Shown: one piece after another, positions 1 through 5,810 of the stretch
Layout of the letters: each line of letters begins with the position of its first letter
Position numbering within the stretch: position 1 is the first letter of the stretch
Assembly (NCBI GenBank): GCA_007136585.1
Contig: SLGR01000219.1
Location: 1 to 5,974 of the forward strand
Reading direction: 5' to 3'
DNA: 5,974 bases
Source: Candidatus Sumerlaeota bacterium
Lineage (GTDB): Bacteria > CG03 > SLGR01
Notes under the pieces: generated by a model
Told to the model about the DNA's origin: nothing
Databases searched by the model: none
What the model saw: only the letters and a program-made list of their open reading frames with translations
Translations under genes and position numbers: made by a program

Positions 1-586
1 CTGAGAGCTCTTTTTTCAGTATATGGGTTTTCCCGAAACCTGCCATATACCCGTTAATCCGGGCCGCAACTGAAGAGCGCATAAAATCCCTGTGATCCGC
101 GTAGCTTTCTCTAAGCTCCCTATATATAACCCTGCTTTTTTTAATATATGATTTCTGCTGGTAATCTTCAGCAGGGAAAAACCTGTCAACGGGATATATC
201 CCTGTACAAGCCTCTCTATCCCCCTGAGAAAGGGCTCTCTTCTTCTCCCGGGCAGCTCTCAGCTGAGAGCTGTTATGGTAAAAAACCGTAGACATAAACC
301 GTCTTCCGGAAGGTTCCCGGAACGGGTCGTGGAGTTTTAAAAACTCCTCAAGGATCCGGCGGTAAGAGGTTTGCTGCGGAAGGAACCGAACCTGCACGGA
401 TTCGGTATGATCCTTAGGGTTGTAAGAAGAAGGTTCCTCGCCTATACCCCCGGTGTATCCCGTAAGGGTGCTGAATACCCCCGGGAGCACCCCCAGCCCA
501 GCTTCCAGCCTGCGGAAATCTCCTCCTGCAAGAGTTGCTGTCATAAGGTCCCCGGCGGCTTCCGATTCCGGTAAGGGTTTAGTCAT
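1..586 (-). CDS. MsrA-like protein lacking the catalytic cysteine, partial (C-terminus beyond left edge)
   Basis: This frame stays open from an ATG at 586 to the window edge and gives 195 residues. The framework is that of peptide methionine sulfoxide reductase A: ATLAGGDF at 17-24, LPGVFSTLTGYTGG at 34-47, HTESVQV at 60-66, LHDP at 85-88, FYHNSSQ at 102-108, FFPAEDYQQ at 136-144, and the late AARINGYMAGFG at 174-185 found in many longer MsrAs. In active MsrA the first motif is GCFWCxE. Here it is GDFRRLE, so the catalytic Cys is Asp23, the Trp is Arg25 and the second Cys is Arg26. The Glu of the GHAE motif is kept (Glu62), but the later Asp appears lost (around Pro92) and the Tyr of TQYRS is Phe97. 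The only visible cysteine is Cys127. Reductase activity is therefore unlikely; a binding or scaffold role is inference. Met15 (codon 544-542) is an alternative start, closer to the usual MsrA N-terminus. The gene lies 37 bases after the preceding one, with a G-rich spacer. The fold is near complete at the edge, so few residues are probably missing. Confidence 0.85.
   Translation of the reverse strand, partial: MTKPLPESEAAGDLMTATLAGGDFRRLEAGLGVLPGVFSTLTGYTGGIGEEPSSYNPKDHTESVQVRFLPQQTSYRRILEEFLKLHDPFREPSGRRFMSTVFYHNSSQLRAAREKKRALSQGDREACTGIYPVDRFFPAEDYQQKSYIKKSRVIYRELRESYADHRDFMRSSVAARINGYMAGFGKTHILKKELS
253..272. repeat. Perfect 20-bp palindrome inside the MsrA-like gene
   Basis: CAGCTCTCAG at 253-262 is followed directly by its exact reverse complement, CTGAGAGCTG, at 263-272. 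Nine bases of the right half (CTGAGAGCT) recur at positions 1-9. The palindrome falls in codons for NSSQLRAA, a part of the MsrA framework where similar residues are usual. It may therefore be a chance product of coding sequence rather than a protein-binding site or RNA hairpin. Confidence 0.5.
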
Positions 587-623: not shown

Positions 624-1784
624 TCAGAAACTCCCTTCCCTGTAAAGGCTCCTTAAGTATTTTATCTTTTTTTCACAGACCCCGGCCAAACTCCCCGCCC
701 TGAGGGCACCCTGTATCCTGGGATCCTCCCAGAGCCACTTGAACTTTCCGTACAGCTCAGCGTATTCTTTTGATGAAACTCCTCGCCACAAATTCTTTTT
801 TTTCTCCATAAGAATACCGGAAGACCCGGGGGAAAGGTTTTCAATATCTTCAAAATAATCTTCAAGAGGGAATCTAAGGTTGTACTCTTCCCAGAGAGAT
901 ATGTTTTTTTTGCGGGCCGACTCAAGCTGCCTCTCCCAGAACTCCAGTATCTCGTTTATGTGGTTAAGGGGTTCAAAACCCTTTTTGCCGCCGTCGTATA
1001 TAACGCAGGCCTCAAGGGCTATGATCATTTTTTCAAACTGGGAGTACTCAAACTCGGGCGAAATCAGAGCTCCCAACCGGCTGCTTTTGAGAAGGTCCGT
1101 ATCCGGGGAGAAATTCTCAAGGGGCGTATCATCTGAAGCAAGGGCGAACCTGCCTTCCAGGTAACAGAGAATAGTCCTCTCGTATCCCGGGCATTTTTCC
1201 CTGAATATCTTGTCCCATTTTCTCAGAACACGAGCGGCTTCGCCGCACCCTATTGTAATAAAAACAAGGTTCCTTATCCGGCAATCAGAAGATTCCATAT
1301 AAGCATCCAGGTACCTCAGCGCGTTGTCCAGAGATATACCGGAAGCGACTATATCGCACGAGTATATGGTTGCTTCATCGGGAACCACGAATTTTCTATA
1401 GAGATCATCGCTAACCTCAAAACTTCCCTCCTTCAGGACCCGCTGGCTGGATATATACGAACTGCTCTGCCACTTGTATCCGAAGGCCCTGTTGAGAGCG
1501 GAGACTATCTCAAAGTTGAGCGCCCCTCTCAGAATATGAAATACGTTTACTTTCCTGGAGTCCAGCCTGCTGAGATCCTCCAGGCGGCTGATTCCCTTGA
1601 GGGCGTTTGTTATACCGTTACGCATCTTCCTGCGAAAACCCACGCTTACTATCTCGGGGTAGTTCATAAGGTCCCGGGTATCCCTGGTGGAAACCACGTA
1701 CTGCTTCAGGGTATCACAGGGATCTCCGGAAATAGTGTAGACCGAGACCGATTCGTCCCGGAACCTTCGCTTAAGCCTTTCCAT
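624..1784 (-). CDS. Unrecognised protein with phosphoribosyltransferase-like motifs
   Basis: This is a 386-residue soluble protein with no signal peptide or membrane helix. I cannot name its family. The middle part follows the motif order of uracil phosphoribosyltransferase. VFHILRGALNFEIVSAL (81-97) resembles the pyrophosphate-binding LRAGL loop. SSSYISSQRV (107-116) sits where the flexible hairpin would be. ATIYSCDIVASGISLDNAL (138-156) resembles the PRPP loop, hydrophobic strand then DD/DP then ATGGS, with Cys143-Asp144 in place of the acidic pair and ASGIS in place of ATGGS. RNLVFITIGCGEAARVL (171-187) matches the following strand and turn. RTILCYLEGRFAL (203-215) sits where the base-binding strand lies. 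Residues 216-386 are charged, rich in Trp, Tyr and Lys, and unassigned. The protein is much longer than the usual ~210 residues of UPRT. The ATG at 1784 has a well-placed GAGG and lies 9 bases after the YihY-type gene, so co-transcription is likely. Catalytic activity and substrate are unknown. Confidence 0.8.
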   Translation of the reverse strand: MERLKRRFRDESVSVYTISGDPCDTLKQYVVSTRDTRDLMNYPEIVSVGFRRKMRNGITNALKGISRLEDLSRLDSRKVNVFHILRGALNFEIVSALNRAFGYKWQSSSYISSQRVLKEGSFEVSDDLYRKFVVPDEATIYSCDIVASGISLDNALRYLDAYMESSDCRIRNLVFITIGCGEAARVLRKWDKIFREKCPGYERTILCYLEGRFALASDDTPLENFSPDTDLLKSSRLGALISPEFEYSQFEKMIIALEACVIYDGGKKGFEPLNHINEILEFWERQLESARKKNISLWEEYNLRFPLEDYFEDIENLSPGSSGILMEKKKNLWRGVSSKEYAELYGKFKWLWEDPRIQGALRAGSLAGVCEKKIKYLRSLYREGSF

Positions 1785-1791
1785 TACAGTG

Positions 1792-1795
1792 CCTC
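1792..1795 (-). promoter_or_regulatory. Shine-Dalgarno site of the PRTase-like gene
   Basis: On the minus strand GAGG sits 7 bases before the ATG at 1784. Its first two bases are the last two of the TGA stop of the YihY-type gene. Ribosomes finishing that gene stop on this site, which suggests coupled translation and supports the chosen start. Confidence 0.6.
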
Positions 1796-3044
1796 ATATA
1801 TCCCGCACGGAAATATGCCGGAACCTTTCCCGTGTAAACCTGTTTACACCCGAAAGAAGCTTATCAACGTTATCGGAAATTTCGTTATCGTTGACCTCCA
1901 GGTCGGATTTCCCGTACCCTCTCACCGCACCTATTATATCCCAGGCGGAAGCGTCTTCCCGGCCGGGGCGGGGCCTGAAGAAGCGCTGCTTGTTTTTATA
2001 CGATTCCACAAGCATCCCTGTTTCAGCAAGCTCATAGAGAAGCTCGTTTACAAGCTTTACCGGGCCTCCCACATCCTCTATTACATCCTCAGCCGGAACC
2101 GGGGTTCCATTATCTGAGCTCCTCCTGAAAACCGAGGCGGCGGCCATAAGGGCCAGTTTCTCCCTGGAAGAGAAACTTACCGCTCCCGCATTCCCCGCGC
2201 TCTTATATACGCGGAAGTTCTGAACGGCAAAAGAAAGCTCCGCCCCGGCAAGGATTATCATCCAGCTTACATATATCCATATAAAAAGAAGCACAAGCTG
2301 GGAGAAACTCCCGTAAATTATATTGAGCTCGGTTGCCCGGGAAGACCAGAGCACGTAGATCCTCTGGGCGCTGAGCCAGAGAAGCCCCGTGACCACCCCG
2401 GCCGTAAGGGCGGCGCTTAACTTGACCCTGACATTGGGAAAGGCAAAATAAAGCAGAGTAAAACCGGAAAAGGCTATGAGATAAGGGAAGAACCCACGGG
2501 CCACTGGAACATGGGTCCCGATAAAATCTATGGCGGCCGAAAGCCCCACTGTAAGGATAACAGGAAGTATAATTATCGCTATAATATAGTAAAACGCCCT
2601 CTTAAGGAGAGGCCTCTTCTCCTTTATGCCCCATATTTCATTAAAATAACGCTCTATATGAGAGAGAAGAAAGGAGGCTATCTTAAGCAGGGCCAGGACC
2701 CCTATAACCCCCAGGGCGCTGACATCGGTCCTGTTGACGTAATCAATTATACTCTCTGATATCTCCGGGTTGATCAGTATGTGGTTAAGGAGAGATATCC
2801 CGTATGTATTCTGAACCCCCGCCTCTTTCAGGGCCACGAAGACCACGGCGGAAAAAGGGACCATAGCTATGAGCGAATAATATGTAAGCGAGGAGGCGAG
2901 TACGTGGCACCGGTCCTTGAAAAAATCATACCCTGTTATGAGTGATATTTTAAGGAGGTTTATCAGGTGACCCTGGGCCTTAGGCCTCCGGGAAACGTCT
3001 ATCCTCCAGAGCTCTTCCTTGAGAAAATGTTTTACCCTGTTCAT
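1794..3044 (-). CDS. YihY/BrkB-family inner membrane protein with C-terminal winged-helix-like domain
   Basis: This is a 416-residue membrane protein of the YihY/BrkB (UPF0761) family, once misassigned as ribonuclease BN; the biochemical role of the family is unsettled. Signature parts are the N-terminal ASSLTYYSLIAMVPF (50-64) and the late YGSFSQLVLLFIWIYVSWMIILAGAEL (244-270). Hydrophobic segments lie at about 48-72, 108-130, 149-175, 184-203, 209-232 and 246-275, giving the usual six-helix core. Residues 290-416 form a soluble tail absent from short family members. About 295-358 has helix-helix-helix then a strand-like stretch (REKLALMAAASVF, then AEDVIEDVG, then VNELLYELAETGMLVES, then QRFFRPRP), as in a winged helix. 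The final 40 residues are charged. The start at 3044 has a modest purine-rich site (GGGAAG) just upstream. The gene follows thiE by 36 bases with no terminator visible. No direct link to thiamine is evident; it may transport or modify something at the membrane, or simply share the transcript. Confidence 0.92.
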   Translation of the reverse strand: MNRVKHFLKEELWRIDVSRRPKAQGHLINLLKISLITGYDFFKDRCHVLASSLTYYSLIAMVPFSAVVFVALKEAGVQNTYGISLLNHILINPEISESIIDYVNRTDVSALGVIGVLALLKIASFLLSHIERYFNEIWGIKEKRPLLKRAFYYIIAIIILPVILTVGLSAAIDFIGTHVPVARGFFPYLIAFSGFTLLYFAFPNVRVKLSAALTAGVVTGLLWLSAQRIYVLWSSRATELNIIYGSFSQLVLLFIWIYVSWMIILAGAELSFAVQNFRVYKSAGNAGAVSFSSREKLALMAAASVFRRSSDNGTPVPAEDVIEDVGGPVKLVNELLYELAETGMLVESYKNKQRFFRPRPGREDASAWDIIGAVRGYGKSDLEVNDNEISDNVDKLLSGVNRFTRERFRHISVRDI

Positions 3045-3080: not shown

Positions 3081-3719
3081 TCAAACCCTCACGTATGAGT
3101 TGTATGCACGGCAGAGCTCACTTACGTTGTTTTCTATGTCTCCTTCGGTTATGCCCCGGACCATCGCCACCGTACGGACACCGGCTTCCAGAACCCTGTG
3201 TAGGTTGCCCCGGTTTATCCCCCCCATAACAGTTACCGGGATACTAACCTTATCCCTGACCTCCCGGAAAGTTTTGAGCCCCACCGGGGATATGCCGGGT
3301 TTTGTCGGTGTGGAAAAAATAGGACCCACGTTCACATACCCGGCGCCTGCCGCCTCCGCCGCCAGGGCCTCCTCCGCACTGCGAGTAGAGCGCCCTATGA
3401 TAAGCCCGGGACCGATAGTTCTCGCCGCCCCTACCGGCAGATCCTCTCTGCCGAGATGCACCCCGTCGGCTCCAACGCTCAGAGCTATATCAATATCATC
3501 ATTTATTATAAGAAGGCGGCCCGCGTCAGAGGTCTTACGCCTGAATATTTCCGCCAGGCGGAACCTCTCCCTCCTTGAGAGATGTTTCTCCCGCATCTGA
3601 ACCGCCTGTACTCCTGCAGCAATAACCCTTTCAAGTATATGCGTAGGGTCCTCACCGGTTCCTTCCCGGGTGCTTATAACCGCATAGAGGTCAACCCGAG
3701 AGGGGAGAAGAGGGGTCAT
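3081..3719 (-). CDS. thiE: Thiamine-phosphate synthase
   Basis: This 212-residue cytoplasmic enzyme joins HMP pyrophosphate and hydroxyethylthiazole phosphate to give thiamine monophosphate, the step where the two halves of the vitamin meet. It has the TIM-barrel sequence of the family: LYAVIS (11-16), QMREKHLS (41-48) for the pyrimidine pyrophosphate, LLIINDDIDIALSVGADGVHLGREDLP (69-95) with the Asn-Asp-Asp that hold substrate and magnesium, IIGRSTRSAEEA (107-118), GYVNVGPIFSTPTKPG (127-142) and MGGINRGN (165-172). Length is normal and no key residue looks lost. The ATG at 3719 overlaps the thiS stop as ATGA, so translation is coupled to thiS. No TenI-like feature stands out: the QMREK and GPIFSTPTK motifs are those of a true synthase, although ThiE and TenI are related and a distant call could confuse them. 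Confidence 0.95.
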   Translation of the reverse strand: MTPLLPSRVDLYAVISTREGTGEDPTHILERVIAAGVQAVQMREKHLSRRERFRLAEIFRRKTSDAGRLLIINDDIDIALSVGADGVHLGREDLPVGAARTIGPGLIIGRSTRSAEEALAAEAAGAGYVNVGPIFSTPTKPGISPVGLKTFREVRDKVSIPVTVMGGINRGNLHRVLEAGVRTVAMVRGITEGDIENNVSELCRAYNSYVRV

Positions 3720-3922
3720 CCGCCTCCCGTAAACTTCAGAACCTCTATGACGCTTCCAGCATCTATCTTAACGGAAGCGGGGTCGTCGGACCTGTTAACA
3801 ATCTTTCCGTCTATCTCTATAACGCAGAGCATACGGTCAACCTTAAGTTCAAGCATAAGCTGGCCGAGATCGGATGCCGATACTTCTTTTTCCCTGCCGT
3901 TTAATATAACGGTCTTACTCAT
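3716..3922 (-). CDS. thiS: Thiamine biosynthesis sulfur carrier protein
   Basis: This is a small 68-residue ubiquitin-like protein that carries sulfur as a C-terminal thiocarboxylate and delivers it to ThiG for thiazole ring formation. The sequence starts with a beta-strand and turn (KTVILNGREKEV, 3-14), has a helix (ASDLGQLMLELKV, 16-28), then CVIEIDGKIVNRSD (33-46) and VKIDAGSVIEVLKFTGGG (51-68), ending in the glycine tail needed for adenylation and thiolation. Length is typical. It overlaps thiH by four bases at its start and thiE by four bases at its end, both as ATGA. A site GGGAGA lies 6 bases before its ATG. ThiS must be activated by ThiF or a MoeB-like enzyme, and none is encoded in this window. 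Confidence 0.95.
   Translation of the reverse strand: MSKTVILNGREKEVSASDLGQLMLELKVDRMLCVIEIDGKIVNRSDDPASVKIDAGSVIEVLKFTGGG
3723..3728 (-). promoter_or_regulatory. Shine-Dalgarno site of thiE, formed by the thiS glycine-tail codons
   Basis: On the minus strand GGGAGG lies 3 bases before the thiE ATG at 3719. It is made from the last base of the ThiS Thr65 codon and the first two glycine codons (GGA GGC). The spacing is shorter than the usual 5-9 bases, so reinitiation through the ATGA overlap probably contributes. Confidence 0.5.
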
Positions 3923-5022
3923 TCCATATCTCCCGCGGATATCGAAGGTTCCGCATTTCTGTATCCCCTGTCCCAGTCCTTGAAAACTGGCCTGAGCCCC
4001 GATCCCTCCAACGCGGAGCAGACCTCGCCAGTGCTCCTTGAATCAAAAACCCCGAACTGTTTAGTATCTTTCTCGTAATGGAGATACCCTCCGGGAGAGG
4101 TCTTTGACTCCACGCTCATATGAGTGATCCCGTAACGGGCGAGGTTATCCCGCATATAAGGGGGCTCCCGGGTTGATATGTATATGGGCGTATCCGGAAA
4201 AAGTATCCTGACTGCGGAGACTATCTTTACAAAATCCCTGTCGCTTACCGGGTAGGGGGCTTTAAACCCCGCACCTTCTTCAACTACTCTCGGAAAAGAT
4301 ACCCCGAAAGTTGTCCTCCAGTGTTTTTTTATCAGATACTCAAGATGCTTTGCAAGAAAGGCAACTTCTTCCCTCCAGGGGGCCAGACCCAGAAGAGCTC
4401 CTATATTTACAAAAGGCACCCCGGCAAGGGCGGCGCGTTCGGGGGTTTCAAGCCTGTACCTGTAATCGGACTTTCTTCCCTTCCGGTGATACCGGGCATA
4501 CAGTTGCCGGTCGTATGTCTCCTGATATACGGTAACTCCGTCAAGACCCGAATTATACAAATTCCTGTACTGCTCTTCACTGAAAGGGCTGACCTCTATG
4601 GATACATGGCTGAATTTTTCAGCCAGCGCCTCCACAACCCCGCAGATAAAATCATACCCCGCGCGGGAAGGATCCTCACCCCCTACTATCAGAATACTCT
4701 CTATCCCCCTGTTTTTAAGATAATCCGACTCCGCTAATATTTCCCGGAGGCTCAGCACCCTTCTGCTTCCGGGTAAAGCGCTGCTGAAACCGCAGTAAGC
4801 GCAGCTGTTCCCGCAGTAACTGGATAGATAAAGGGGTGAGTAGAGGTTTATTCTCCTTCCGAACCTGGAATCCCTTATCCGCCGGGCTTCCTGGAGAAGA
4901 ACTTCCAGTTCAGATTCAAGTATCTTCTCAGGAAGAACAGACGGTTTCCCGGAAACAGAAAGCCCGTAAAAAGATTCCGGGAGGCACTCCGTTTTTCCGT
5001 GCTTTACCGGTCCTGAAGCCAT
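3919..5022 (-). CDS. thiH: 2-iminoacetate synthase (tyrosine lyase, radical SAM)
   Basis: ThiH cleaves tyrosine with a SAM-derived radical to give dehydroglycine (2-iminoacetate) and p-cresol; dehydroglycine supplies the C-N unit of the thiazole ring to ThiG. From the ATG at 5022 the protein has 367 residues, close to the ~377 of E. coli ThiH. The radical SAM cluster motif CGNSCAYCGF is at 70-79, with CxxxCxxC cysteines 70, 74 and 77, preceded by NLYSPLYLSSY. Further family stretches are ILIVGGEDPS (110-119), VYQETYD (165-171), NIGALLGL (206-213), FGVSFPRV (239-246) and the C-terminal QFGVFDSRS...FKDWD (about 322-351). The frame also opens at an ATG at 5085, but those 21 extra residues lie entirely over the thiG end and resemble nothing. 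The start at 5022 has AGGGGA upstream and overlaps thiG by 19 bases. The cluster is oxygen-sensitive, pointing to anaerobic or facultative growth. Confidence 0.95.
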   Translation of the reverse strand: MASGPVKHGKTECLPESFYGLSVSGKPSVLPEKILESELEVLLQEARRIRDSRFGRRINLYSPLYLSSYCGNSCAYCGFSSALPGSRRVLSLREILAESDYLKNRGIESILIVGGEDPSRAGYDFICGVVEALAEKFSHVSIEVSPFSEEQYRNLYNSGLDGVTVYQETYDRQLYARYHRKGRKSDYRYRLETPERAALAGVPFVNIGALLGLAPWREEVAFLAKHLEYLIKKHWRTTFGVSFPRVVEEGAGFKAPYPVSDRDFVKIVSAVRILFPDTPIYISTREPPYMRDNLARYGITHMSVESKTSPGGYLHYEKDTKQFGVFDSRSTGEVCSALEGSGLRPVFKDWDRGYRNAEPSISAGDME

Positions 5023-5810
5023 CCTATAAAATCCCCTGCGGGAGAACTGGCCCTGGCAGATTTTGAGCTTCTGACCCCGCTGCACAAAAATGCCTCGCGA
5101 CCAGCTCTTACAGCCATATCAAAGGCGCGGGCCGCCCTAGGCGGATCCGCCGCCGTTGCTATAGCCGTATTCACCAGGACGGCTGCGGCCCCCATCTCCA
5201 TCGCAGCAGCGGCATGAGAGGGCATCCCCAGACCCGCATCAACTATAACAGGCACCTTGGACTGTTCTATAATGATCTCTATCATATCCCTCATTCGAAG
5301 CCCTCTGTTAGAGCCTATGGGAGCCCCAAGGGGCATCACAGCCGGACACCCCTCTTCCTCGAGCCTCTTTGCCAGAACAGGGTCCGCGTTTATGTAGGGA
5401 AGCACAGTGAACCCGTTTTTTACCAGAAGCCCGGCAGCCCGGAGCGTCTCCACGGGATCCGGAAGAAGATACCTGGGTTCTGGGGTCAGCTCAAGCTTCA
5501 CCCAGTCACCGCCTCCGGCGGCGCGGGCCAGTTTTGAAAGGCGGAAGGCTTCTTCAGCCGTACGGGCCCCGGATGTATTTGGCACAAGAAGCACCTTTGA
5601 CCGGTCTATACTACTGATAAATTCATCATCTCCGGAATCAAGGTCCATTCTCCTAAGGGCTACAGTTAAAAGCTCCGACCCGCTGCTTTTTACGGCTTCC
5701 GACATTACAGCCGCTGAAGGATATTTCCCCGTACCTATAAAAAGCCTGTTTCTGAACTCCCTGCCCGCTATCTCAAGCGTATCATGATTATTATTTATCT
5801 TACTTGTCAT
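5004..5810 (-). CDS. thiG: Thiazole synthase
   Basis: ThiG is a cytoplasmic TIM-barrel enzyme that makes the thiamine thiazole phosphate from 1-deoxyxylulose 5-phosphate, dehydroglycine and ThiS thiocarboxylate. The protein has 268 residues, normal for the family. FIGTGKYPS (24-32), TVALRRMDL (49-57) and LLVPNTSGARTAEEA (74-88) open the barrel. GDWVKLELTPEPRYLLPDP (101-119) carries Lys105, which forms the Schiff base with the sugar, and Glu107. GFTVLPYINADP (133-144), MPLGAPIGSNRGL (159-171), PVIVDAGLGMPSHAAAAMEMGAAAVLVNTAIA (187-218) with Asp191, and FLCSGVR (241-247) complete the phosphate-binding and catalytic face. By offset, Lys105, Glu107 and Asp191 correspond to the known Lys96, Glu98 and Asp182 of the B. 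subtilis enzyme. It is the first recognisable gene of the run, with GAGG 6 bases before the ATG, and its end overlaps thiH by 19 bases. Confidence 0.96.
   Translation of the reverse strand: MTSKINNNHDTLEIAGREFRNRLFIGTGKYPSAAVMSEAVKSSGSELLTVALRRMDLDSGDDEFISSIDRSKVLLVPNTSGARTAEEAFRLSKLARAAGGGDWVKLELTPEPRYLLPDPVETLRAAGLLVKNGFTVLPYINADPVLAKRLEEEGCPAVMPLGAPIGSNRGLRMRDMIEIIIEQSKVPVIVDAGLGMPSHAAAAMEMGAAAVLVNTAIATAADPPRAARAFDMAVRAGREAFLCSGVRSSKSARASSPAGDFIGWLQDR
5032..5037 (-). promoter_or_regulatory. Shine-Dalgarno site deciding the thiH start
   Basis: On the minus strand AGGGGA sits 9 bases before the ATG at 5022, inside the end of thiG. This supports 5022 over the in-frame ATG at 5085, whose extra residues have no family match. 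Confidence 0.55.

Follow-up and report, generated by a model that had tools for sequence, protein, structure and literature searches.

A probable MsrA pseudoenzyme of the helical-domain subfamily in a Candidatus Sumerlaeota genome

The closest solved structures to the protein described here are those of the MsrA of Clostridium oremlandii (CoMsrA; PDB 4LWJ/4LWK/4LWM/4U66). The active site of CoMsrA comprises GCFWG (residues 15–19; GUFWG with selenocysteine, Sec16), Tyr47, Glu55, Gln89, Tyr90, His137 and Tyr140 (PMC4333827), and the proton donor is Glu55 (PMC4479559). The window analysed, the entire 5974-bp contig SLGR01000219.1 of Candidatus Sumerlaeota bacterium (GCA_007136585.1, a metagenome-assembled genome (MAG) of 257 contigs and 88% completeness), carries at one end a gene for an MsrA-like protein with 36% identity to CoMsrA, in which only Gly15, Phe17 and Glu55 of these residues are kept. 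Classical MsrA of the Escherichia coli type (TIGR00401) shares the common PF01625 fold; the window protein differs from it in having neither the catalytic nor the resolving Cys. The protein belongs to the MsrA superfamily by descent and is probably a real, retained pseudoenzyme derived from the helical-domain (selenocysteine-type) subfamily.

The gene (2..586, minus strand, 195 codons) begins with an ATG at base 586 and runs without a stop codon to base 1, where the contig ends and truncates the protein after residue 195. Compared with a 226-residue orthologue from a second genus, described below, roughly 20–30 C-terminal residues are missing, and a search of the rest of the assembly for them, a weak test with a 46-aa query, gave no match. 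Pfam PMSR (PF01625) matched with 82 bits (E 7e-23; curated cut-off 23.7 bits) over positions 1–148 of the 153 in the profile, and the NCBI msrA equivalog TIGR00401 scored 65.9 bits, under its cut-off of 108.1. The MsrA helical domain, PF20939, scored 21.6 bits, just under a cut-off of 23.7: its first part is present (SSVAARINGY), its end is lost with the contig, and the orthologue has the full extension. A search against solved structures returned six full-length CoMsrA sequences as the closest (E 9e-33 and up). The AlphaFold2 model (mean pLDDT 74, with low confidence in the C-terminal helical part) superposed on CoMsrA with a Z score of 19.1 over 125 residues and an rmsd of 2.4.

To locate the changes in the active site, the residues listed in PMC4333827 were mapped onto the window protein by alignment. 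Besides Gly15, eight of the ten mapped positions are changed. GDFRR (residues 22–26; 509..523, minus strand; codons GGA GAT TTC CGC AGG) replaces GCFWG or GUFWG, with C16 becoming D23, W18 R25 and G19 R26, while F17 is kept as F24. Outside the motif, Y47 has become S54, H137 Q143 and Y140 S146, and Arg96-Phe97 (296..301, minus strand) replaces Gln89-Tyr90; this Arg is common to the orthologue. A functional MsrA (EC 1.8.4.11) has Cys or Sec in G[CU]FW, where the window protein has Asp and the orthologue Pro. The aromatic methyl pocket is broken up, its Phe remaining and its Trp and both Tyr hydroxyls (Tyr47, Tyr90) gone. The proton donor is retained as Glu62 (401..403, minus strand), and is Glu in the orthologue as well. 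The sole Cys of the 195-residue fragment, C127, is not conserved. With D, R, R, S, E, R, F, Q and S at these positions, the pocket has acquired a polar, charged character. The protein would be unable to use known MsrA chemistry; on the same grounds it is not expected to reduce methionine sulfoxide (MetO).

These results agree with much of the original prediction, which had been made from the letters of the window and had described an MsrA framework with Asp for the nucleophilic Cys, Arg for the Trp of the methyl pocket and Phe for an active-site Tyr. The framework, said to extend over the full length, can be followed by profile and fold up to the contig end, and the structure prediction that had been proposed as a check gave a model matching MsrA structures with Z scores of up to 19.1. 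Two of its other readings have to be corrected. It had counted Arg26 as a substitute for a second Cys; the fifth position of the motif is usually Gly in the helical subfamily, so the loss of a resolving Cys there need not be assumed. The supposed replacement of an active-site Asp by Pro is likewise not specific to this protein, as the loop that carries the catalytic Asp of E. coli MsrA is absent throughout the helical subfamily.

Placement within that subfamily is given by the tree. The helical-domain clade, which contains CoMsrA and MsrAs with an in-frame TGA, splits from ordinary MsrA with support of 97/92. The window protein falls inside it, as sister (support 86/83) to a second Cys-less copy found in G002, a genome of the same bacterial family but a different genus (the Elusimicrobia-labelled public MAG contig JAAZFS010000022.1). 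The sister join falls short of full support and could reflect long-branch attraction. Orthology of the two copies is supported by synteny: in both loci a YihY/BrkB gene is followed by a phosphoribosyltransferase-like gene and then by the MsrA-like gene, with an ankyrin-repeat gene between the first two in G002. In addition, eight residues are unique to the pair, including the Arg at the Gln89 position, the highest number for any pair in the set. The G002 gene (L049:3110-3787) is an intact frame of 226 codons with the motif GPFWD and no active-site Cys; its only Cys sits in the C-terminal extension. The active-site features common to both copies are the motif's Gly and Phe, Glu55 and the shared Arg, and no others. 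A conserved clade with the GDFRR form, the existence of which had been proposed as a point to check, was not seen as such: a Cys-less orthologue does occupy this position in a further genus, but the motif itself is not conserved.

The same genome also has a normal enzyme, whose existence the original prediction had asked about. On contig C135 there is a second MsrA of the same Pfam family, set apart by a canonical GCFWG, an adjoining MsrB and the lack of a helical domain; its close relatives in the tree include MsrAs from genomes of the same bacterial family and order. The G002 MAG (84% complete) yielded neither MsrB nor a canonical MsrA, and the Cys-less copy is the sole MsrA homologue found there.

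The main alternative to retention is that the gene has been drifting since the nucleophile was lost and has simply not yet acquired a stop codon. Several observations bear on this. Among positions invariant in nine catalytic helical-type relatives, those outside the active site are kept in 23 of 31 cases in the window protein and 24 of 31 in the G002 protein, against three and five of nine within the active site (p about 0.02 in a pooled Fisher test). By codon position, the fraction of differences between the two copies is 0.49 at the first, 0.44 at the second and 0.71 at the third (chi-square p 0.0008). Both frames are free of stops, over at least 195 and over 226 codons. In simulations of neutral drift, about 10% of sequences were stop-free at 26% changed residues and 2% at 40%, frameshifts not being counted, and such drift without a stop would be needed twice. 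Because of the pattern of invariant positions, the codon-position bias and the stop-free frames, we conclude that the structure is under selection while the catalytic constraint has been released, the signal being moderate. The intact frame and the selection on the protein had both been foreseen from the window sequence.

Against retention stand a number of observations that indicate weak constraint or are otherwise as expected of decay. The end branches of the two Cys-less copies are very long, at 2.33 and 2.48 where the median is 0.88, and the copies are 35% identical whereas the upstream proteins are 67% identical. Only two genomes carry a Cys-less copy, and a third genome of the family is without the gene. 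In the window genome the normal MsrA makes the copy dispensable. Most of the changed pocket residues are not the same in the two lineages, unlike what one conserved new active site would show, and part of the codon-position signal may pre-date the loss of the nucleophile. Even so, the retained structural residues and the two open frames leave decay rather unlikely. Continued catalysis of another kind, for instance hydrolysis or isomerisation by way of Glu55 and the new Asp and Arg, is much less probable still. It would be in keeping with the Glu and Phe held by both copies and with their shared Arg; the orthologue, however, has Pro in place of the candidate catalytic Asp23, and the remaining substitutions disagree. 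That the gene is a normal MsrA spoiled by sequencing or assembly might be suspected from its position at the end of a MAG contig. This is refuted by the orthologue, which comes from an independent public MAG and lacks the Cys at the corresponding locus; the eight changed active-site residues also speak against it. The original prediction had already dismissed a single sequencing error, on the ground that several codons differ by more than one base from those expected.

A retained pseudoenzyme thus remains the probable explanation. A helical-domain MsrA ancestor would have lost its nucleophile together with the greater part of the sulfoxide pocket, and two genera of a single bacterial family would have kept the folded protein for a purpose other than MetO reduction. 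Judged from the remodelled pocket, this purpose is most likely binding or scaffolding, in which the old active-site face may take up a polar ligand or contact another protein; a link to the phosphoribosyltransferase-like protein encoded just upstream is conceivable. As to how the nucleophile was lost, we tentatively suggest that in a lineage without selenocysteine machinery the UGA of a selenoprotein MsrA changed to a sense codon for a residue other than Cys, and that the product then became a non-redox binding protein, perhaps together with the adjacent phosphoribosyltransferase-like protein; this course of events is possible, hardly more. Among nine other helical-type MsrAs aligned, all from other phyla, the nucleophile is an in-frame TGA in seven, presumably selenocysteine by analogy with CoMsrA, and Cys in two. 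None of the phylum's 16 genomes, several of them incomplete MAGs, gave a match to selA, in a search in which E. coli alone of the named controls passed the cut-off. The Rfam model for tRNA-Sec matched ordinary tRNAs in all control genomes and was hence uninformative.

All other MsrA loci with an automatically readable motif have Cys or TGA at the nucleophile position, and no third copy without Cys or Sec was seen among the loci examined in 919 genome look-ups (overlaps included), which took in searches centred on G228, G250 and G274. Viral contigs contained normal GCFW MsrAs only and no Cys-less copy. A scan of the contig collection with the window protein gave no match, the named records having been reached through a neighbour-gene profile. 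Three other loci deserve mention in their own right. L067 (1407-2036) encodes a helical-domain MsrA with GCFWD in place of GUFWG, the Asp at position 5 occurring also in the G002 protein. In L075 (G385:C9), a TGA-containing helical-type MsrA, the second half of the frame departs from the family as if frameshifted. L046/L048 (G006:C224:13311-13735) is an MsrA beside MsrB whose coding sequence is broken across two frames, with a TAA close by, the cause being either a frameshift or a sequencing error.

The remaining genes of the window lie on the same strand. The phosphoribosyltransferase-like gene (624..1784, minus strand), directly upstream of the MsrA-like gene, represents an unnamed family; its product has no Pfam hit, contains the motif DIVASGxSLDNAL and shows weak sequence and fold similarity to hypoxanthine phosphoribosyltransferase (HGPRT) and PyrR. 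Its relatives reach 60–68% identity in MAGs labelled Spirochaetes and Elusimicrobia; in the phylum's other families the figure is about 33%. MsrA is not a general companion of this gene, since nine other loci that contain it, eight of them from Spirochaetes-labelled MAGs, had no MsrA match. The gene for the YihY/BrkB family membrane protein, which lies upstream in both loci, occupies 1794..3044 (minus strand). A thiamine cluster (thiE, thiS, a ThiH-like radical SAM protein and thiG) lies at 3081-5810 (minus strand); the radical SAM frame as listed shares 82 bases with thiG, and the gene therefore probably starts further in. An Rfam scan of the window gave no match.

Some enzyme classes have well-known pseudoenzymes, but none was described for MsrA in the open-access literature searched. 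Genes of this kind would be annotated as MsrA from the Pfam score alone, the NCBI equivalog cut-off not being reached here. If the present reading is true, an MsrA without Cys or Sec, retained beside a normal one, would be a case of the fold being kept for binding alone.
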